The position numbers and the translations under genes are program-made. DNA of 40,506 bases, taken from positions 1-40,506 of the forward strand of contig NZ_CADEFI010000005.1 in the NCBI RefSeq assembly GCF_902826555.1, given 5' to 3'. This DNA is from an uncultured Hyphomicrobium sp. (GTDB lineage: Bacteria; Pseudomonadota; Alphaproteobacteria; Rhizobiales; Hyphomicrobiaceae). Every line of letters begins with the position of its first letter. Position 1 is the first letter of the stretch. The notes beneath the pieces were generated by a model that did not search any database, was not told the origin of the DNA, and worked only from the letters and a program-made list of their open reading frames with translations. Positions 29,091 through 39,592 of the stretch are shown piece after piece.

Positions 29091-29150
29091 GAAGCGTGAA
29101 TCATCGGTCTCATCAAAGACCCAATGTGGCTCGGCTCTTCTTCACGCTTC
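29091..29150. repeat. Long-range inverted repeat at the ubiE / HHH gene junction
   Basis: GAAGCGTGAA (29091-29100) and TTCACGCTTC (29141-29150) are exact 10-bp arms around 40 bp that hold a smaller hairpin (GGTCT/AGACC). A perfect palindrome GATCATGATC lies just left at 29061-29070. The right arm overlaps the last codons of the HHH gene. There is no U-run, so it is not a normal intrinsic terminator; it may be a repeat element or a Rho-independent end without U-tail. Confidence 0.5.
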
Positions 29151-30674
29151 TCCGCGGTCGACGCGGCGTGAGAACTCAGTCTGGCCACCGGACGCGAGAA
29201 TGCGCGCCTGCTCGATCCAGTTCTCGCGCTCGATGCGACCCTTGAAATCGAGAATCTGGCTCATGCGGTCGATGTCGCCGCGCGTCCAGTTGGCGACCTG
29301 CTCGTAAGCGGTGATGCCGAGCGAGTTGAGCTTCTTCTCGATGAGAACGCCGATGCCGCGAATGCGCTTGAGATCGTCGATAGGCCCGGCAGAAATGCCG
29401 CCGAAACCATCGCCGCGTAACGCTTCCGACTTGACCGAGCGAAGCCCCGAGTAGCTCTCGACGCGCGGTGCACTAACGACGACTGGAGCCACTTGAGCCC
29501 CGGCCGGCGGTGCGGGCGTCTCGCTGATGACCTCGGGCTCCGGCGCTGGAGGCGCACGGCCGGTGAGAAACAGCGCCTGCTCCACCCAACTCTCGTGCGC
29601 AATCCGGCCAGGCGAGCCGATCAACCCCTCGAAACGGGTCACATCCGCCGCGCTCCACGACGCGATCTGATCCAGCTGCGAAATGCCGTTGGCCCGCAGG
29701 ACGGCTTCGGACTGCGGATCGACGCCAATGATGCGATGTAGCCGGTCGCCATCGACCGGCACGGGTCCGGCAACCACGGTCGCGGACTTGAGAGCGACGG
29801 CGGGAGAGCCGCCGGCCGCCAGAATGCCGGCCTGCTCGACCCAGTTCTCGCGCTCGACGCGCCCCTGGAAGCCCAGCGTCTGGTTCACGGCCCGCACGTC
29901 GTCCGGCGTCCACTCCGCGATCTGTGAGAAGCGATGCACGCCGTAGCGGACAAGCCGCTCCTTGAGATCGGTGTCGATGCCGCGAATGCGGGTGAGGTCG
30001 TCCACTGCGTCCCCGAAACCTCGCTCGAGCGGCGAAACTTCGGCCGGCGTGCCGAAACGTGACGGTCCGTCGTCGTCTGCTGGTCCCGGCGCCGGAGCGC
30101 GGGCCTCGGCAGCTTTTTGAGCGGCAGCCGCATCAGCCTCCGCCTTGAGCTTGGCCGCGGTGGCCATCGCGGCCGCAGCGACCGCAATCTGGGTATAGCT
30201 CTCCCCGTCGCCCGCCGGAGCGGGCGCTGGACGCACAACCGGCGCGGGCTCCACGGACTTCGGCTGCGGAGCGGGCGCCGGTGCCGGTGGCAACACCACG
30301 CGCTGCGGCGGCGCGGGCGACGGCGAAGGCGCCGCTTGTGGAGCAGACTGCGGAGCTGGACGCGTGACGGGCTGCGGCGCCGGAGCAGAAACCGGCTTCG
30401 GCTGCACTTCGATCACCGGCTGGCCTGCGAGCACGGGAGGCACACCCGGATCCTGGCCGCCGGAAAGCGCGCGGCCAAAGCGGTCTGTTTCCGCAGCCAC
30501 GACCACCGCCGGCGGCGCCGCCACGGCCACCCCTGTGAGGGCTGTCTCCGCTGCTTCGCTGACGGCGTCATCGCGCGAGGCGGTGAAGCCGCGCCGGATC
30601 AGACAGGCGAGCGACGCGCCGAGCAGGAACGCTCCGAGCATCAGCAAGAAAGTCTGCACGAGCAAAATCGTCAT
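29142..30674 (-). CDS. Helix-hairpin-helix repeat membrane protein
   Basis: A 510-residue protein of unknown function. A single N-terminal membrane anchor (about 1-25) is followed by a Pro/Ala-rich linker (about 50-155) and an Ala-rich helical stretch (about 160-195). Three repeats of about 65 residues follow (roughly 225-290, 308-372, 433-497). Each has the shape D-L-x-R-I-x-G-[VI]-x12-G-[VI]-x3-[QE]-[IV]-A-x-W-[TS]-x2-D-[VI]. Repeats 1 and 3 also share a G-R-[VI]-E-R-E-N-W-[VI]-E-Q-A core; repeat 2 has HESWVEQA instead. The first part of each is an HHH motif, known from DNA-binding and bacterial complex I accessory proteins. Start ATG 30672-30674, with GGGAG 9 nt before it. Lies downstream of a small membrane protein gene and an OmpA gene. 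Confidence 0.85.
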   Translation of the reverse strand: MTILLVQTFLLMLGAFLLGASLACLIRRGFTASRDDAVSEAAETALTGVAVAAPPAVVVAAETDRFGRALSGGQDPGVPPVLAGQPVIEVQPKPVSAPAPQPVTRPAPQSAPQAAPSPSPAPPQRVVLPPAPAPAPQPKSVEPAPVVRPAPAPAGDGESYTQIAVAAAAMATAAKLKAEADAAAAQKAAEARAPAPGPADDDGPSRFGTPAEVSPLERGFGDAVDDLTRIRGIDTDLKERLVRYGVHRFSQIAEWTPDDVRAVNQTLGFQGRVERENWVEQAGILAAGGSPAVALKSATVVAGPVPVDGDRLHRIIGVDPQSEAVLRANGISQLDQIASWSAADVTRFEGLIGSPGRIAHESWVEQALFLTGRAPPAPEPEVISETPAPPAGAQVAPVVVSAPRVESYSGLRSVKSEALRGDGFGGISAGPIDDLKRIRGIGVLIEKKLNSLGITAYEQVANWTRGDIDRMSQILDFKGRIERENWIEQARILASGGQTEFSRRVDRGEA

Positions 30675-32517: not shown

Positions 32518-33204
32518 ATGACGGTCAGGTTCTTGATCGTCGACGATCATCCCCTCTTTCGCGAGGCTCTTCAGCTCGCCATTGAATCGGCCTACCCGGA
32601 AGCCGAGATCGTCGAAGCTTCGTCCATCGCCGCTGCCCAGGAGGCGCTGGCGAGCGAGCAGCCGTTCGATCTCTTGCTTCTCGACCTCACGATGCCGGGC
32701 ACACGGGGGTTCGACGGGCTGATCGAGCTGCGCGCAGGCCGCCCCAAGCAGCCGATCCTGGTCGTTTCCGCCCACGAGGATCCGCGCATCGTTCATGAGG
32801 CCATGACCTGCGGCGCCGCGGGCTACATCTCGAAGTCCGTGAAAAAACGCGATCTCGCCGAAGCGATCCAGGACGTGATGGCCGGACTCGTGGTGCTACC
32901 GAAGGGCTATTCCCCTCCGCTGGCCGATGGCGGCCCCTCGCGCGAGACGGACCTCGCCGCCCGTGTCGCCTCCCTGACCCGCCAGCAACTTCGCGTCCTC
33001 CAGATGGTCCGCCAGGGCATGCTGAACAAGCAGATCGCCCATGAGCTCGGAGTCGGCGAAACAACCATCAAGGCGCACGTGTCCGAGATCATGCGCAAGC
33101 TCAACGTCGTCTCGCGCACCCAGGCCGTGATCGAGGTAGCGCGGCTCGACTTCGATGCCGTGCTCGCCAACGCCGCCGCCAAGGAAGCCGGCAAAGGCTC
33201 CTGA
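32518..33204 (+). CDS. LuxR-family response regulator (AgmR/NarL type)
   Basis: A 228-residue transcription factor. The receiver domain (about 3-120) has the acidic pair in LIVDDHPLF, phospho-acceptor Asp56 in LLLLDLTMPG, the signal Ser in VVSAHEDP and the Lys in GYISKSVKK. The C-terminal LuxR helix-turn-helix (about 155-215) reads LTRQQLRVLQMVRQGMLNKQIAHELG and ETTIKAHVSEIMRKL. It resembles AgmR/ErbR regulators, which are fed by sensor-less hybrid kinases like the one next door. ATG 32518 is taken because MTVRFLIVDDHP matches the receiver start. It is tail-to-tail with the kinase gene, 27 bp apart, with no terminator between. Confidence 0.9.
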   Translation: MTVRFLIVDDHPLFREALQLAIESAYPEAEIVEASSIAAAQEALASEQPFDLLLLDLTMPGTRGFDGLIELRAGRPKQPILVVSAHEDPRIVHEAMTCGAAGYISKSVKKRDLAEAIQDVMAGLVVLPKGYSPPLADGGPSRETDLAARVASLTRQQLRVLQMVRQGMLNKQIAHELGVGETTIKAHVSEIMRKLNVVSRTQAVIEVARLDFDAVLANAAAKEAGKGS

Positions 33205-33231
33205 CCTGCGTCGGCTCAACCCGCGATCGCC

Positions 33232-34614
33232 TCAACCGATGAGATGCGTGACGAGCGCGCGCAGCTCCGCCGGCTTCACAGGCTTGCGCAAAAGCTCGCA
33301 ACCGGCCGCGGCAACAGCTTCGGACGCCTCGCGCGACTGGTCGGCAGTGATGACGATGGCCTGGATCTGCGTATCCTTGGCATCCCTCAGCGTTGCCACC
33401 GCCGTAAGCCCGGAATCTCCGCCGTCGAGATGGTAATCGGCCAGAATGATATCTGGACGATACTCGGGCTCCAGCGCCAGCACGGCCTCGACGTCGGCCA
33501 GTCCCGAGAAGATCCGTGCCTCGCACCCCCACCGCTCGAGCAGCGCCCGCATGGCATCGCGCACCACGCTGTCGTTGTCGATGACCACGATCTTCATGCC
33601 TTCGAGGCCGTAGGCACGCGCGGCGGCATACTTGCTGTTGCCCGCCGTCTTCCGAAACGCAATGGCGACGTCCACGACCGGCACATAGACCGAGAACCGC
33701 GTACCGCGCCCGGTCTCCGAGCAAAGCTCGATCCTGTGCCCGAGCGCTTCGCTCATGCGCGCGATGATGGCAAGTCCGACGCCGAACCCGCGCGCATGCG
33801 ACTTGAGGCCGGCCGCGCCGCGATGGAACTCCTCGAAGATCTTCGTCTGCTCGGACGGCGCGATTCCCGGGCCCGTATCCCACACGTCGATCCTGAGCTG
33901 CGATCCCCGCTTGCGGGCAGCGAGTAGCACCCGCCCGCGCTCGGTGTACTGCACCGCGTTGGCCAGCAGGTTCTGCAGAATACGACGCAACATCAAGGGA
34001 TCGGAGGTCACCAGGACGTCGCGCGCGCGCATGGAGAGCGCGAGCCCCTTGTTGCGCGCGATAGGCTCGATGTCGACCAGCACCGAACGGAACAGGTCCA
34101 GGAGCTCGACGGACTGGAACGACGGCCTCAGCGCACCCGACTCGAGCTTCGAGATGTCGAGAATGGTGCGCAAAAGTTCCTCGATGGTCGACAACGCGTG
34201 ATCCACCTGCCCGATCAGCCGCCGGTGCTGCTGGTCCTCGCGCATCTCGCCGAGCGCCGAAAGCGAAAGCCGCGCCGCATGCAACGGCTGCAGGAGATCG
34301 TGGCTTACGGCCGTGAAGAAGCCAGTCTTGAAACGGTTGGCACGCTCCGCGCCGTCGCGCGCGCTCGTCAGCTGCTCGTTGGTGCGCTCGAGGCGGTTGA
34401 GCGCCGCCTTGAGTTCCTCCGTGCGCGCGCGCACCTGCGTCTCGAGACCGATCGCGGTTTGAAACATGGAATAAGCGTTGGCCTGATAGTCCATGCTGCG
34501 TTCGACGCGTTGCATCAGCGCCGCGTTGATTTTGGCAAGCTTCTCGTTACGCCGCTCGAGCTCCTCGAGCGCATCGTGATGCGAGAGATAAGCTGGGCGC
34601 GAGCCGTTGGTCAT
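33232..34614 (-). CDS. Hybrid histidine kinase without sensor domain (NahK-like)
   Basis: A 460-residue cytoplasmic hybrid kinase. The N-terminal 100 residues are a coiled coil (LEELERRNEKLAKIN; RARTEELKAALNRLERTNEQL) with no PAS, GAF or membrane segments. HisKA has the phospho-accepting His in FTAVSHDLLQPLHAARL (about 100-116). HATPase_c has LQNLLANAVQYT (N box), DVWDTGPGIA (G1), FEEF and GFGVGLAI (G2). A receiver domain (about 342-458) has IVVIDNDSVV, acceptor Asp in ILADYHLD and the Lys of LLRKPVKP. The gene overlaps the FIST gene (ATGA), so the FIST protein is the probable sensory input, as in NosP/NahK of Pseudomonas. P. aeruginosa NahK resembles this domain order; this is recalled, not searched. 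Confidence 0.92.
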   Translation of the reverse strand: MTNGSRPAYLSHHDALEELERRNEKLAKINAALMQRVERSMDYQANAYSMFQTAIGLETQVRARTEELKAALNRLERTNEQLTSARDGAERANRFKTGFFTAVSHDLLQPLHAARLSLSALGEMREDQQHRRLIGQVDHALSTIEELLRTILDISKLESGALRPSFQSVELLDLFRSVLVDIEPIARNKGLALSMRARDVLVTSDPLMLRRILQNLLANAVQYTERGRVLLAARKRGSQLRIDVWDTGPGIAPSEQTKIFEEFHRGAAGLKSHARGFGVGLAIIARMSEALGHRIELCSETGRGTRFSVYVPVVDVAIAFRKTAGNSKYAAARAYGLEGMKIVVIDNDSVVRDAMRALLERWGCEARIFSGLADVEAVLALEPEYRPDIILADYHLDGGDSGLTAVATLRDAKDTQIQAIVITADQSREASEAVAAAGCELLRKPVKPAELRALVTHLIG

Positions 34615-35777
34615 CCCGACCCCCGCCGCGCCCCGAACGCCACTCCCGTCAACGTTTGGTTGAGGTGCATCGAATTGAGCTGCTCGCCATAGGTATGAAA
34701 ACCGACCACGCCGTACGTGCGATAAAGGTCTTCCATCTGGCGGCGGATTTGCCGGTTCTCCGCATCGAGCCGCCGCAGGACGCAGTCGAAACCCAGCACG
34801 ATGTCGATACCGCCGAGCGCCCGGTCCAGATCCTCGAGCGCACGCTCCGTCGAGCTTAGCATATCCTTGGGCCGCGCCACCGTGAACACGAGCCCTTCGT
34901 CGATAGCACAGAAGAAGGAGAGGCTGCCGTCGGCATTCATATTGCGGATCGAGCGTGGATAGTAATCGCCGCCCACTTTGACCACGAGCGGATAGGACGC
35001 AAAGCTGAAAGGTCCGAGCTCGTCGGGCAGGAGGCCGATCGCCGCCGCATATTCCCGCGCCGCAGGCTCGGCGTTGAGCTCCTGCACGGTGCGGCCCTCG
35101 GTATCCGCCGCCGTGACCACGAGCTTGATCTGCGTAGGCTCGAAGTTCGAGGTCTGAAAGATGCGGAACGGGTAATCGCTCTCGATCATCATCAGAATGG
35201 CGCTTCGCGTCAGCACGCGTCCCTGGTGAATGAGAGACGTCTGCCGGAACGCAAGCCCATCACCCGCCGATCCTCCGATGAGTTGCATGCCGCCGAAGGC
35301 CCAATGAACGGCCGCGACCAGGGTCTCCTCGGCGTTGGAAAGACCGTCGACAAGCATCACTCCGAACACCCGTTCGGCAAGCTGGTCGCAATGTTGCAGA
35401 CCCATGCGGGCCTTGAGGTCACGCACGATTTCGCCGGCCCGCTCGACGCCGAACGCCGTCACGTCCTCGATGACACCCGTATGAATGCGAAAGCCTGCCC
35501 GCGGAAAGGCGATCAGCAGCACGCCGCTTTCCATGATGCCGCTGGGTCCGATCCCGCCCGAGGTCGAGCATCCGTTGATTTCCACGCCCTCGAAAGCGTT
35601 GGACAACTCCACGGCGAGCTGCGCCGCGTCGTAGTCGACCGAAAAAAACGCCACGATCTGCTGGAAGTCGCCCACCAAGGCGGCCTTCAGTTTCGCAACG
35701 GCATCCTTGATGTCCGGAGCCCGCGTGCTCGCAACTCCGATCCCGCACGAGCTTGCGGAGGCAACTGCGCGCCCCAC
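34611..35777 (-). CDS. FIST-domain sensory protein (NosP-like)
   Basis: A 388-residue soluble protein with an N-terminal FIST_N domain (about 10-215: VAFFSVDYDAAQLAVELSNAF, INGCSTSGGIG, GGSAGDGL) and a C-terminal FIST_C domain (about 215-370). The latter ends in the typical VVGFHTYGEQLNSMHLNQTLTG. FIST proteins bind small ligands; those paired with sensor-less kinases (NosP) bind haem and sense nitric oxide. The start is GTG at 35775-35777 with GGAGG 5 nt upstream; a TTG 105 nt further upstream has no such support. It overlaps the kinase by 4 bp. Haem binding cannot be read from sequence, so the ligand is open. Confidence 0.9.
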   Translation of the reverse strand: MGRAVASASSCGIGVASTRAPDIKDAVAKLKAALVGDFQQIVAFFSVDYDAAQLAVELSNAFEGVEINGCSTSGGIGPSGIMESGVLLIAFPRAGFRIHTGVIEDVTAFGVERAGEIVRDLKARMGLQHCDQLAERVFGVMLVDGLSNAEETLVAAVHWAFGGMQLIGGSAGDGLAFRQTSLIHQGRVLTRSAILMMIESDYPFRIFQTSNFEPTQIKLVVTAADTEGRTVQELNAEPAAREYAAAIGLLPDELGPFSFASYPLVVKVGGDYYPRSIRNMNADGSLSFFCAIDEGLVFTVARPKDMLSSTERALEDLDRALGGIDIVLGFDCVLRRLDAENRQIRRQMEDLYRTYGVVGFHTYGEQLNSMHLNQTLTGVAFGARRGSG

Positions 35778-36154
35778 GCTATCCTCCCTGACGCCGACCT
35801 TACGTGTCCATGACAAAACCCGGACACACGGCAGCAATTGTTGTCGAACCGTTATTCGACGAAGCTGCCATAGCTTCGGCAAGCCAGCAATTGGTGATGT
35901 GGTAAATGGGGATGGCTGCAGACCGCATCAAGCCGGAAACCGCTCGCGCTCGAGCCTGATCCAATCGACGATCGCTTCCAACCCCAGCCCCCCCCACGAA
36001 CGACCGCCGCCCGGGCGTGGCACGAGCGCCTCATCTGTCGCGCTGTCATCTCCATGTCGCCGATCGGTTGCTTCGCCGTCGCACGCGGCTGCTAGCCACG
36101 ACAGATGCGCGCCACCTTGCGGCCGCTGTCGGCCTCATGCGTCGGGGGACGCAG
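35778..36154. other. Divergent region between FIST and glycosyltransferase genes
   Basis: A 377-bp gap. Its left part holds the dyad cluster at 35832-35893. The right part (35900-36154) is open in the frame of the glycosyltransferase, but has no family match. I see no tRNA or terminator, and no confident -35/-10 boxes for either operon. Confidence 0.5.
35832..35893. promoter_or_regulatory. Nested dyads upstream of the FIST-kinase operon
   Basis: CAGCAATTG occurs twice in direct orientation (35832-35840 and 35885-35893), 53 bp apart, close to five helix turns. Between them lie two adjacent inverted repeats, GTCGAA/TTCGAC (35843-35860) and CGAAGCT/AGCTTCG (35860-35878). The cluster starts 55 bp upstream of the FIST GTG. 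It is likely an operator or promoter array; no known regulator motif is recognised. Confidence 0.5.
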
Positions 36155-37684
36155 ATGGATATGCAGACGAAGTACGCCAGCGCACCAGCCCGCGCGCCTC
36201 GTAGCGACGCGCCGGAGCGAATCGCGACGGGGCGCTTCTCGATTTTCTTGAGTCTGCTTCTGCTGATCGCCGCGCTTCGGCTCGTCGCACTCGCCGCAAA
36301 CGGCACTGACCTCTACATGGACGAAGCCCAATACTGGGCCTGGTCGCGCGAGCTGGCGCTCGGCTACTTCTCGAAGCCGCCGCTGATCGCCTGGATCATT
36401 CACGGCACAACGGCAGTCTGCGGCGATGGCGAGGCCTGCATCCGCTTGCCATCGGTCATTCTCCACAGCATGACGGCGGCGCTGATCTACGGTATCGCAG
36501 CCCGCCTTTACTCCGGCAAGGTCGCGTTCTGGTCGGGCCTCGGCTACGCACTCCTCCCGGCCGTATCGCTATCGAGCGGCATCATCTCCACCGATGTGCC
36601 GCTGCTCGCGGCCTGGGCGCTGGCGTTGCTCGCATTCGCCGGCCTCATGCAGAAACCGACGATGCGCGACACGGCCCTCCTCGCCCTCGCGCTCGGCCTT
36701 GGCCTCAACGCGAAGTATGCGATGGCCTACTTCGTGCTGTGCGCGGCGATCTATTTCGCGCTCGCGCCCGAGCACCGCGTGCGCCTCAAGGGATCGCATC
36801 TGTGGCTCGCGCTTGCGGGCGGGATGGCGCTCATCGCGCCAAACATTCTCTGGAACGCCGCAAATGGCTTCGTCACTTTCGCCCACACGGCCGAGAACGC
36901 GAATTGGCGCGGCGTACCCTTCCACCCGGAGAAGGCCGCCGAGTTCCTGCTCGCACAGTTTGGCGTCTTCGGCCCGATCCTGTTCGGCACCCTACTCGTT
37001 GTCGTGTGGCGCGCCGCAAGGCATCCGGCAGATCTGTCATCCTCGGACAAGCTGCTTCTCGCGTTCTCGATCCCGGTTCTTGTCGCCGTAACCGCTCAAG
37101 GGCTGATCTCGCGCGCTCACGCCAATTGGGCGGCACCGGCCTACGTGGCGGCGATCGTCCTTGTCACGGCCGCGATGATCCGCAATCGCGACTGGGCTTG
37201 GATGCGCACCTCGCTCGCGTTGCACGTCGCGCTTGCTCTTGGCATCGGGCTCGCCACATGGCAGGCAGGCCGTTTCGCCCTCCCCGGCGTGGGCGACCCC
37301 TTCGCCCGCACCCTCGGCAATCGCGCGCTGGCGGAAGAACTGCGCCGCGAGCTCACCACGGCCGCACAAAGAGGAATGCCCATCGGCTCCGTCCTCACCG
37401 AGGATCGCGAGCTGGCGGCCGCTCTCGCCTACTACGCGCGCGATGTCGCCGTGCCCAGTCTTTCGTGGCGCGGAGCCGCCGCGCCGCGCAGCTACTTCGA
37501 GATGACGCGCCCGTATACGCCGTCGGCGCCGACTCCGGTTCTTCTGGTGAGCGCGAACCGGAATTCGCCCGTCACCAAAAGCTTCTCCCGCATCTCGGCG
37601 GAAAACTCCTGGTTGATCCCGGCCGGAGAGCACGCGACGCGCACCGTCTTCTTCTCCCTTCTCGAGCGCAAAGGTGAGCCATGA
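36155..37684 (+). CDS. GT39/ArnT-like polyprenyl-phosphate-dependent glycosyltransferase
   Basis: A 509-residue inner membrane protein with about 10-12 membrane segments. The first periplasmic loop has ALAANGTDLYMDEAQYWAW with the catalytic Asp-Glu pair (about 65) and GYFSKPPLIAW, the hallmark of the GT39/ArnT/dolichol-phosphate-mannosyltransferase group. Such enzymes move a sugar from an undecaprenyl or dodecaprenyl phosphate carrier to lipid A, glycan or protein. ATG 36155 is chosen with GGGGGA 5 nt upstream; an earlier ATG at 36137 is possible. It overlaps the PAP2 gene by 4 bp (ATGA). The GT2 gene downstream is a natural maker of its carrier-linked sugar. The acceptor is unknown; lipid A or its core is favoured by the neighbours. 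Confidence 0.88.
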   Translation: MDMQTKYASAPARAPRSDAPERIATGRFSIFLSLLLLIAALRLVALAANGTDLYMDEAQYWAWSRELALGYFSKPPLIAWIIHGTTAVCGDGEACIRLPSVILHSMTAALIYGIAARLYSGKVAFWSGLGYALLPAVSLSSGIISTDVPLLAAWALALLAFAGLMQKPTMRDTALLALALGLGLNAKYAMAYFVLCAAIYFALAPEHRVRLKGSHLWLALAGGMALIAPNILWNAANGFVTFAHTAENANWRGVPFHPEKAAEFLLAQFGVFGPILFGTLLVVVWRAARHPADLSSSDKLLLAFSIPVLVAVTAQGLISRAHANWAAPAYVAAIVLVTAAMIRNRDWAWMRTSLALHVALALGIGLATWQAGRFALPGVGDPFARTLGNRALAEELRRELTTAAQRGMPIGSVLTEDRELAAALAYYARDVAVPSLSWRGAAAPRSYFEMTRPYTPSAPTPVLLVSANRNSPVTKSFSRISAENSWLIPAGEHATRTVFFSLLERKGEP

Positions 37685-38475
37685 GCGGCATCGACCCCTA
37701 TGCACCGCATGAGATCAAGTTCCGGCGCGAGTTCCTGGTTGGCGCGGCTCTGCTTTCAGTCCCGCTCGCAGTGCTCATGGTCTCGAACCCGGGCATCGAC
37801 CTCGCCATTTCGAACGCCTTCCAGCAGGCTTGCGCCATTCCGCCGATCGCCAAAGGAGCACCGTGGTGCCCCACCGACGCAGTCGCGATGACGCGCAAGA
37901 TCTTCATGGGTGTTTTCCTGCTCGTCGTCTTCGCGACCCTCATCGTAAGCATCAGAACCTTCCTCGCCGGGCGCAAGCTCTTCGGCGCCGAGCAGGCCCG
38001 CTGCCTGTTCATGATAGCCGTCCTCGTCGTTGGACCGGGCGTGGTTGCCAATCTCGTCTTGAAGGAAAACTCGGGCCGCGCACGCCCGCGCGACGTCATT
38101 GAGTTCGGCGGCACGAAGGCCTTCACCCCGCCGCTCGTTCCTTCCGGAGAGTGCCAGCGCAATTGCTCGTTCGTCAGTGGCGAGGCCTCCTCGATGTTCG
38201 CCGCATTTTTCGCCCTCGCGTTGCTGTTGCCTCGGTATCGCATCGGCATGTTGGCCACGGCCATAGCCATGGGTACGCTGGCGGGACTCGTCCGCATCCT
38301 GCAAGGCGCACACTTCCTGAGCGACGTCGTCTTCGCCGGCATCTTCATGGCGTTGACCGTAAGCCTGTTGCACATCGCGATCATCGGCCTGTGGCGCGAT
38401 CCGCGGCGCACGCTGAATGCCGTAACGGCCCCACTGATGCCGTTGATGCGCGTCGCAGCCGCGAGGATACGCTGA
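37681..38475 (+). CDS. PAP2-superfamily lipid phosphatase (LpxE-like)
   Basis: A 264-residue membrane phosphatase with about six hydrophobic segments. The catalytic motifs are KENSGRARP (KX6RP, about 128-136), SFVSGEASSMF in the PSGH position and RILQGAHFLSD (RX5HX3D). The middle motif has Glu where His is usual, while the other two catalytic parts are intact. Rhizobial LpxE removes the 1-phosphate of lipid A and lies in lipid A modification clusters; other members act on undecaprenyl pyrophosphate or phosphatidylglycerol phosphate. It overlaps its upstream neighbour by 4 bp and its downstream neighbour by 1 bp, so it is coupled to both. Confidence 0.88.
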   Translation: MSGIDPYAPHEIKFRREFLVGAALLSVPLAVLMVSNPGIDLAISNAFQQACAIPPIAKGAPWCPTDAVAMTRKIFMGVFLLVVFATLIVSIRTFLAGRKLFGAEQARCLFMIAVLVVGPGVVANLVLKENSGRARPRDVIEFGGTKAFTPPLVPSGECQRNCSFVSGEASSMFAAFFALALLLPRYRIGMLATAIAMGTLAGLVRILQGAHFLSDVVFAGIFMALTVSLLHIAIIGLWRDPRRTLNAVTAPLMPLMRVAAARIR

Positions 38476-39266
38476 TGGATCGCCGCACCACCAGCGCCCC
38501 GCTCGCCGTTGTGATCCCGGCCTTCAACGAGGCCGGAAACATCGGCAATCTTATCCGCGAGACGGCCCAGTGCGTCCCGGATGGCACCTTGCGCGAGATT
38601 GTCGTCGTGGACGACGCAAGCTCCGACGCCACGCCCTCGGAGATCCAGGCCTTGCTCGGCACGATCCCGCAGCTTCGCTACATCCGCCACGCGCGGCGCG
38701 CCGGCCAGAGCGCCGCCGTCCGTTCGGGCGTACGCGCGGCAACCGCACCCCTGATCGCCACCATGGACGGCGACGGGCAGAACGACCCGCGCGACATCGC
38801 CAAGCTGTCGGCACTCATCGAGGCATCCTCCAATCCCGACGTTGTGCTCGCCGGCGGTATCCGCGTCACGCGCCGCGCCGAATCCTCGAAGCGCCTGGCG
38901 TCCAAATTCGCCAATTGGCTGCGCATGCGCATTCTCGACGACCGCTGCCCGGACACGGGCTGTGGCATCAAAGTTTTCCGGCGCGATATCTTTCTCGATC
39001 TCCCCTACTTTTCCGGCATGCACCGCTATCTGCCGGCTCTCGTGCAGGCCTACGGCCACGAAGCCGTCTACGCACCCGTCAACGACCGCCCCCGCCGTGC
39101 CGGCGTCTCGAAGTACACCAACCTCGGCCGTGGCCTGATCGGCATCCACGACCTCATCGGCGTCCGCTGGCTGATCAAGCGAACAACCCTCCCCCACGCT
39201 CAACGCGCAGCGTCCGAAATCAAAAACCCTTCATCGAGCGAGGAACACCCGTGCTTGCAAAGCTGA
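38475..39266 (+). CDS. GT2 polyprenyl-phosphate glycosyltransferase (DPM1/RgtE-like)
   Basis: A 263-residue cytoplasmic GT-A enzyme. It has VVIPAFNEAGNIGNLI at about 11-26, VVVDDASSDATP at about 42-53, and MDGDGQNDPRDI (the DxD metal motif) at about 97-108. The acceptor region CPDTGCGIKVFRRDIF, RYLPALVQAYGHEA and RRAGVSKY match the dolichol/polyprenyl-phosphate mannosyltransferase group. It has no C-terminal membrane helices. It would load a sugar (mannose, galacturonate or 4-amino-arabinose type) onto a polyprenyl phosphate for the GT39-type gene upstream. ATG at 38475 overlaps the PAP2 stop by one base; its end overlaps the LAB_N gene by 16 bp. Confidence 0.9.
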   Translation: MDRRTTSAPLAVVIPAFNEAGNIGNLIRETAQCVPDGTLREIVVVDDASSDATPSEIQALLGTIPQLRYIRHARRAGQSAAVRSGVRAATAPLIATMDGDGQNDPRDIAKLSALIEASSNPDVVLAGGIRVTRRAESSKRLASKFANWLRMRILDDRCPDTGCGIKVFRRDIFLDLPYFSGMHRYLPALVQAYGHEAVYAPVNDRPRRAGVSKYTNLGRGLIGIHDLIGVRWLIKRTTLPHAQRAASEIKNPSSSEEHPCLQS

Positions 39267-39592
39267 CCGCATGGTGGGCCGCCCTCTCGCCCGCCGAGGT
39301 GATGTGGCTGCTCATTGGCCTGACGGGTCAGGCCATGTTCTCGGCCCGTTGGCTCATCCAATGGGTCATGACCGAGAAATCGCGCCGCTCCACGATGCCG
39401 GACACGTTCTGGTATTTGAGCCTTCTCGGCGGCCTACTCGTCTTCGCCTATGGCTTGCATCGCTTGGATCCGGTGATCCTGCTCGGCCAGTTCGGCATCA
39501 TCATCTACGCCCGCAACTTGTTCTTCATCCGCCAGGAGAAGCAAACGGCAGTCCCTCCGGGAGCGTCCGCAACGGCTCCCGCTGGAAGCTAG
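39251..39592 (+). CDS. LAB_N-domain (lipid A biosynthesis N-terminal) membrane protein
   Basis: A 113-residue protein with three membrane segments (about 11-32, 46-64, 66-83) and the LAB_N hallmark FSARWLIQW (about 29-37), then TFWYLSLLGGLLVFAYGL and GIIIYARNLFFIRQE. The domain lies at the N terminus of some lipid A synthases and also occurs alone beside polyprenyl-sugar enzymes in rhizobia (RgtF-like, from memory). The GTG at 39251-39253 has GAGGA 6 nt upstream and lies inside the 3' end of the GT2 gene, overlapping it by 16 bp. The C terminus is low-complexity. It is the last gene of the four-gene run. Confidence 0.85.
   Translation: MLAKLTAWWAALSPAEVMWLLIGLTGQAMFSARWLIQWVMTEKSRRSTMPDTFWYLSLLGGLLVFAYGLHRLDPVILLGQFGIIIYARNLFFIRQEKQTAVPPGASATAPAGS

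Follow-up and report, generated by a model that had tools for sequence, protein, structure and literature searches.

In Pseudomonas, a trio of genes is formed by nosP (PP_2663, also called GfdT), a kinase gene named pedS1, ercS' or nahK, and the regulator gene agmR or erbR, with PA1975-PA1976-PA1978 and PP_2663-2665 as described examples (PMC12997753). According to that review, AgmR activates a pyrroloquinoline quinone (PQQ)-dependent alcohol dehydrogenase and the pqq genes, and deletion of pedS1 alters the activity of the pedF promoter; the review also suggests that PP_2663 and PedS1 could act via nitric oxide (NO) instead of, or besides, alcohols (PMC12997753). A trio of the same build, with a FIST gene followed by a hybrid kinase gene and a LuxR-type regulator gene, as described for nosP-ercS'/nahK-agmR (PMC12997753), is located at positions 32518 to 35777 of a 40,506-nucleotide stretch of DNA from an uncultured Hyphomicrobium sp. 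(contig NZ_CADEFI010000005.1), here called the window. It is read here, with moderate confidence, as one three-protein module that regulates genes of PQQ-linked alcohol and aldehyde oxidation, and as a short-kinase Hyphomicrobium version of the Pseudomonas nosP-ercS'/nahK/pedS1-agmR/erbR trio and of the regulator-FIST-kinase trios of Rhodobacterales.

The open reading frames afdT and rfdT of Rhodobacter sphaeroides and orf2 of Paracoccus denitrificans separate the regulator gene from the kinase gene in the AfdRS, RfdRS and FlhRS systems, which are reported to control formaldehyde and methanol oxidation (PMC4776306, PMC8879981). The mode of formaldehyde sensing by AfdRS and RfdRS is described as unknown, and neither system appears to have conserved cysteines (PMC4776306). 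In the loci and plasmids of Rhodobacterales collected in this study, a FIST gene, in one case annotated as GfdT, fills the place between regulator and kinase; from the shared gene order and this name we infer that afdT, rfdT and orf2 are FIST genes. The window trio probably corresponds to the Afd, Rfd and Flh formaldehyde regulators: regulator, third open reading frame and kinase are all present, although the order differs and the regulator of the window is convergent. The trio of Paracoccus sp. TOH, with a kinase that has PAS domains, shows 39/40/40% identity to that of the window. On plasmid 1 of P. denitrificans, no trio was found where Paracoccus sp. TOH has it (stretch 480000-510000 examined).

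In Burkholderia, the FIST protein NosP controls NosK, a kinase without a recognised sensor domain, and the two are reported to interact in a two-hybrid assay (PMC12570481). Published work describes NosP of Burkholderia and Pseudomonas as carrying haem and regulating a kinase in response to NO, and NosP of Legionella as exerting control that depends on NO (PMC12570481, PMC11784011, PMC8846402). Control of a kinase by a FIST protein, as described for NosP-NosK-NosR of Burkholderia and NosP-NahK-NarR of Legionella, is also proposed for the window. The described output of those systems is of the HD-GYP or GGDEF/EAL type, whereas the window encodes a LuxR DNA-binding regulator and a hybrid kinase with a C-terminal REC domain. 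Research has treated NosP/NahK as a switch for NO and biofilms, AgmR/PedS1 as regulators of alcohol use and Afd/Rfd/Flh as regulators of the formaldehyde response; on the evidence of the gene trio, all three may largely belong to one family.

The features of the locus are as follows. The coordinates and reading frames of the three genes agree with those in an earlier note made from this DNA, which had proposed a NosP/NahK-type signalling module.

32518..33204, plus strand: REC-LuxR (NarL-type) response regulator, 228 residues (Pfam, NCBIfam, key residues, own-genome search)
33205..33231, no strand: 27-bp gap between the convergent stop codons of regulator and kinase (read from the sequence)
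33232..34614, minus strand: hybrid histidine kinase, 460 residues, HisKA-HATPase_c-REC, with H105 and without a sensor domain (Pfam, NCBIfam, AlphaFold model, residues)
33250..33591, minus strand: C-terminal receiver domain of the kinase, residues 342-455 (Pfam)
34135..34329, minus strand: HisKA phospho-acceptor domain, residues 96-160 (Pfam)
34330..34575, minus strand: N-terminal helix of the kinase, residues 14-95, proposed FIST-docking segment (match to long NahK-type kinases and to a fusion protein, model)
34611..34614, minus strand: ATGA overlap of FIST stop and kinase start (sequence; a 4-base overlap recurs in many relatives)
34611..35777, minus strand: FIST/FIST_C protein, 388 residues, GTG start, NosP/GfdT-like (Pfam, NCBIfam, model, sequence)
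34665..34667, minus strand: codon of FIST His371, nearly invariant (at least 90% of 42 divergent FIST proteins), suggested as a possible haem ligand
34683..34685, minus strand: codon of FIST Glu365, invariant (42 of 42)
34782..34784, minus strand: codon of FIST Cys332, invariant (42 of 42)

The ATGA overlap of the FIST and kinase genes and the tail-to-tail regulator 27 bp from the kinase stop, both pointed out in the earlier note, were read directly from the sequence. Translational coupling of FIST and kinase through the overlap is likely. The GTG start of the FIST gene at 35777 is preceded, five bases upstream, by GGAGG, and its position broadly matches the starts in close relatives.

All domains looked for in the profile search advised by the note match strongly in Pfam (E-values in brackets). 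The FIST protein contains FIST (6.5e-38) and FIST_C (1.5e-18), the kinase HisKA (3.1e-10), HATPase_c (3.2e-24) and REC (1.2e-13), and the regulator REC (3e-24) and GerE (1.3e-18). Key residues are present in the kinase (H105 and D393, the latter the probable phospho-acceptor of the receiver) and in the regulator (D9, D10, D56, S84 and K106). The best NCBIfam models are NosP for the FIST protein (395 bits, curated cut-off 450), near_NosP_CTERM, the C-terminal model of the NahK family, for the kinase (389 bits, cut-off 400) and ErdR for the regulator (186 bits, far under the cut-off of 390); all three matches are highly significant and below their curated cut-offs. The note's proposal of a NosP/NahK-type module is supported at the level of the superfamily, for which the NosP label is fair; the curated cut-offs for NosP and the NahK C-terminus are not reached. 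The regulator was considered as ErdR itself, and this was rejected on its score. ErdR and CrbR regulate acetate and alcohol use; the partner kinase of CrbR is described as fused to a solute-transporter domain, unlike the window kinase (PMC5715377).

The kinase lacks a sensor domain of its own, as had been noted before: none is found by Pfam, and the AlphaFold model (mean predicted local distance difference test score, pLDDT, 77.7; predicted template modelling score, pTM, 0.45) has a single helix at residues 12-122 that runs into the phospho-acceptor helix. A hidden PAS domain was considered and rejected on the same two grounds. At residues 14-95 the protein aligns with the N-terminus of long kinases from Rhodobacterales and Pseudomonas-like genomes, and this segment also aligns, with 49% identity over 81 residues, with the region that follows FIST in a natural fusion protein (locus L150, see below). 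Three kinases with PAS domains were scanned (L082, L140 and L150), and in all of them these domains are located between the segment and HisKA. With residues 14-92 as query, one copy of the segment was found in the host's own genome at E<=10. These matches, computed directly, suggest that the segment is a FIST-docking helix, and that the 460-residue kinase is a minimal form consisting of docking helix, catalytic core and receiver. The kinases of L139, L140, L142 and L144 are 846-870 residues long (PAS shown for L140), as compared with 460 residues without PAS in the window; the kinase of L143 (464 residues) is short and without PAS like that of the window. Loci L138-L142, Pseudomonas-like by inference, have a convergent regulator as in the window, and the FIST protein, kinase and regulator of L140 share 36/39/40% identity with their window counterparts. 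A minimal kinase of 460 residues is well suited to biochemistry.

Conservation of the trio was surveyed over 127 loci, made up of the window, the best 80 of 317 relatives in named genomes, 6 plasmid regions and 40 regions from a survey of 249 genomes of the phylum. These are not 127 independent genomes: the FIST C-termini are identical in L014 and L033, L068 and L122, and L074 and L075, while L149 and L150 share one genome and L130, L131 and L157 another. No flank is longer than 8-10 kb, and contig ends often cut it shorter, so that counts of neighbours are lower bounds. Adjacency was defined as a kinase match within 600 bases, and some gene starts are approximate.

FIST and kinase genes are neighbours on the same strand in 115 of the 127 loci. 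A separate kinase is missing in 12, one of which is the fusion: in L150 (6997-10515, minus strand), from another class of the phylum, FIST, PAS, kinase and receiver form a single protein of 1172 residues, with a convergent LuxR regulator and an adjoining aldehyde dehydrogenase as neighbours. A related regulator is found within 4 kb in 80 loci, 53 times convergent (window included), 15 times divergent upstream, 11 times upstream on the same strand, and once beside the fusion. The trio is not a chance find: both FIST and regulator are present in 8/8 genomes of the genus, this host included. The neighbourhood survey, which the earlier note had advised as well, thus finds the trio conserved. Linkage that is kept despite rearrangement, together with the fusion, both computed directly, is the best evidence that the three proteins work together. 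The two partnerships put forward in the note also gain from these data: the FIST protein is the probable input of the kinase, since the two are adjacent in 115 loci and fused in one protein, and the kinase probably has the LuxR regulator as its partner, since their linkage persists in three gene orders.

The mechanism proposed for the module has three steps. The FIST protein, a separate input subunit, would dock on the N-terminal helix of the kinase and set its activity. The kinase would then hand phosphate on to the REC-LuxR regulator of the convergent gene, either directly or via a separate protein with a histidine phosphotransfer (Hpt) domain. The regulator, finally, would control transcription of genes for PQQ-dependent oxidation of alcohols (methanol) and aldehydes elsewhere in the genome.

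The proposed target genes are those suggested by gene context. PQQ-system queries (dehydrogenase, pqqBCE, SoxYZ-like carrier, zinc hydrolase, PedF, beta-propeller protein and XoxJ) match within 8 kb at 25/127 loci and in 12 of the 27 kinase-bearing clusters into which the FIST proteins fall at 60% identity (L073, L150 and L157 are outside the clusters owing to their length). When aldehyde dehydrogenases are included, with queries that may catch enzymes of other roles, the numbers are 33/127 loci and 17/27 clusters. Genes of alcohol and aldehyde oxidation are the commonest among the neighbours tested, and the gene surroundings throughout Proteobacteria suggest a link to PQQ-dependent oxidation of these compounds. 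In the Bradyrhizobium-type loci L074-L078, L081 and L120, two tandem LuxR regulators behind the kinase are followed by a XoxJ-like protein and a PQQ dehydrogenase.

Co-occurrence was counted over the 249 genomes, leaving out the weak NosP matches of G027, G142 and G178 and a partial norB match in G139. NosP-type genes (56) and PQQ dehydrogenases (52) occur together in 26 genomes (odds ratio 5.6, p 8e-7, kinship ignored). In 12 of these 26, no more than 15 kb separate the two genes. The nearest PQQ dehydrogenase is closer to the NosP-type gene than expected by chance in single-contig genomes (5 genomes, single p 0.002-0.07, combined 1e-6), under a distance test that assumes circular genomes and with three of the five genomes belonging to one family.

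The FIST protein of the window has its named close relatives in Hyphomicrobium, with 82% identity in H. zavarzinii. Hyphomicrobium is a genus of methylotrophs. The host genome (3.72 Mb, 81 contigs, 99.9% complete) contains one FIST gene and, at E<=1e-20, one ErdR-like regulator, which is that of the trio. Eight PQQ alcohol dehydrogenases score above the family cut-off. None of them is on the window's contig; the locus shares the FIST-kinase and convergent LuxR arrangement with Pseudomonas PedS1/AgmR and differs by the absence of a PQQ dehydrogenase from its contig. On another host contig, C16 (L175-L178), six PQQ dehydrogenase genes are grouped within about 50 kb; five exceed the cut-off and one narrowly misses it.

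Several observations weigh against control of PQQ-linked genes by a single three-protein module. No gene of the PQQ system and no aldehyde dehydrogenase gene is present within 8 kb in the window. Among the 30 loci of the window's FIST cluster, a PQQ dehydrogenase is close by in just two; because the window and 28 of the 30 cluster loci are without one, the output in this host is extrapolated from relatives. Of the NosP-type-positive genomes of the same class, 8/24 lack a PQQ dehydrogenase at E<=1e-120, including 5/7 of one genus. One family of the phylum has 17 NosP-positive genomes, none with a PQQ dehydrogenase and five with norB; in the eight of these 17 that were looked at, no NahK-type kinase was found beside FIST. 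At 36 of the 127 loci, some of them cut by contig ends, FIST and kinase are without a related regulator within 4 kb. Finally, the reported target of NahK in P. aeruginosa is HptB (PMC11784011), and the host genome contains one open reading frame of stand-alone size (154 residues) with an Hpt domain.

The alternative that survives best, though it is considered unlikely, is that the FIST protein is a NosP proper, a haem-binding NO sensor that inhibits or activates the kinase and so ties NO to biofilm or denitrification genes. It is consistent with NosP as the best NCBIfam model, with the haem and NO control reported for the NosP proteins of Burkholderia, Pseudomonas and Legionella, and with the conserved His371, which, to judge from its conservation, is a possible haem ligand. 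NosP-type genes and norB (46) also co-occur, weakly, in 17/249 genomes (odds ratio 2.5, p 0.018, kinship ignored). A match to any of the nitrogen-oxide queries within 8 kb was obtained at 5/127 loci, all NosR-like (L051, L070, L071, L072 and L080). NCBIfam models identify the nirK, nosZ, napA and nosR queries, Pfam domains and gene order back those for norB, norQ and norD, and one of two nnrS queries has no Pfam family match. At L070 (5643-7778, Rhodoblastus) and L071 (5676-8570, another Hyphomicrobiales bacterium) the NosR-like genes adjoin FIST and score 530 and 544 bits against a cut-off of 1000; such neighbours may be a clue for NO or may encode an unrelated flavoprotein.

Against these points, the FIST protein scores under the NosP cut-off, and nirK, norB and nosZ were found within 8 kb of the trio at 0/127 loci and in 0/27 kinase-bearing clusters. 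In none of the 17 genomes with both genes is norB within 15 kb of the NosP-type gene (nearest about 19 kb, in G060), and in single-contig genomes norB is not nearer than chance (3 genomes, combined 0.92). The host genome has no match to the copper nitrite reductase gene nirK and none to norB at E<=1e-30 (6 of 7 candidates scored). Six matches to the cytochrome-d1 family exceed its low cut-off, some only with their neighbours, at 20-31 bits each and up to 45 with neighbours; at most roughly one third of the profile is covered, in open reading frames of 326-373 residues on two contigs that also bear PQQ dehydrogenases. These weak, partial matches are read as beta-propeller proteins and not as NirS. 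With no nirK, no norB and only these matches, the host genome contains no convincing source of NO from respiratory denitrification, and the earlier note's proposal of such a source is not borne out; NO from neighbours or side reactions is possible. The note had further named biofilm or methylotrophic genes as targets. The methylotrophic part was a good guess, but the biofilm part is not supported here: the regulator has a LuxR-type output domain and is no cyclic di-GMP enzyme, and a GGDEF motif occurs within 8 kb at 8/127 loci. In the host studied here, regulation of alcohol and aldehyde oxidation linked to PQQ is a more likely function than one in NO signalling, denitrification or biofilms. 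Of the open-licence literature matches listed, the Pseudomonas ped review alone combines NosP with PQQ.

A second alternative, rather improbable, takes the LuxR regulator as a mere neighbour and lets the kinase signal through its REC domain and a stand-alone Hpt protein to another regulator, as NahK is reported to do via HptB; the single Hpt open reading frame of the host would fit. It is countered by the presence of a regulator of the same subfamily beside FIST and kinase in three different gene orders and in all eight genomes of the genus, and by its being the sole ErdR-like regulator of the host genome at E<=1e-20.

A third alternative concerns the ligand. In a set of 42 divergent FIST proteins, Cys332 and Glu365 never vary and Cys70 and His371 hardly do, and the invariant pair suggests, from conservation, an aldehyde-sensing route alternative to haem and NO. 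Cys332, aided by Glu365, would form a reversible hemithioacetal with formaldehyde, acetaldehyde or another aldehyde produced by the PQQ alcohol dehydrogenases and so switch the kinase and drive the trio; FIST proteins paired with NahK-type kinases would then be aldehyde sensors by origin. The FIST model (mean pLDDT 80.8, pTM 0.84) has as its best match among solved folds the human protein FBXO22, in whose FIST domain Cys326, with Glu362 beside it, is reported to form hemithioacetals with synthetic aldehydes (PMC13316043). The Cys-Glu spacing, 36 in FBXO22 and 33 in the window protein, is suggestive. PQQ and aldehyde dehydrogenase genes in the neighbourhood of relatives, and the control of formaldehyde oxidation by related systems (PMC4776306), agree with such a role. 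If it were true, aldehyde sensing by FIST would be the missing formaldehyde-sensing step of Afd and Flh, and the response to NO and haem a second chemistry on the same fold; if the T subunit of AfdRS and RfdRS is a FIST protein, it has an invariant cysteine, and the formaldehyde-sensing question is directly testable.

However, the FBXO22 match is remote (Foldseek E 1.5e-7, 12% identity, template modelling score 0.46-0.55, root-mean-square deviation 6.5-7.7 Å), and residue-by-residue equivalence is thus only a possibility. No obvious ligand pocket is reported for the FBXO22 FIST domain (PMC11185555), and adhI expression with formaldehyde is reported as unchanged in an rfdT mutant (PMC4776306). 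FIST proteins that have no NahK-type kinase next to them retain Cys332 and Glu365 as well, and the invariance of these residues may be structural. The aldehyde sensor is regarded as a long shot.

The next fold matches after FBXO22 are of the cyanuric acid hydrolase type. Sequence searches of solved structures with the FIST protein gave no convincing relative, with matches at chance level at best, and the model matched nothing in a viral fold library at E<=0.001. Among the open-licence literature matches listed, no bacterial FIST protein is tied to aldehyde sensing.

Footprinting of the regions upstream of regulator and FIST in the window and four close relatives revealed no clear inverted repeat. 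A TGGCAGC-like stretch 5' of FIST (minus strand, before 35777) is conserved in the window and four Hyphomicrobium-type relatives. A scan for promoters and terminators found nothing clear within the trio; it returned two promoter-like sites, both upstream of the next gene, and five terminator-like sites against 3.0 expected.

Divergent from FIST, at 36017-39592 of the window (plus strand), a PMT_2 glycosyltransferase, a PAP2/LpxF-like phosphatase and a LAB_N-domain protein are encoded in a row and resemble a cluster for lipid A modification. On the other side of the trio, at 29142-30674 (minus strand), a protein with a match to HHH_5 (helix-hairpin-helix) has three stretches each matching the NCBIfam models for L21, S2, NuoE and phasin; these repeated stretches are probably one shared repeat.

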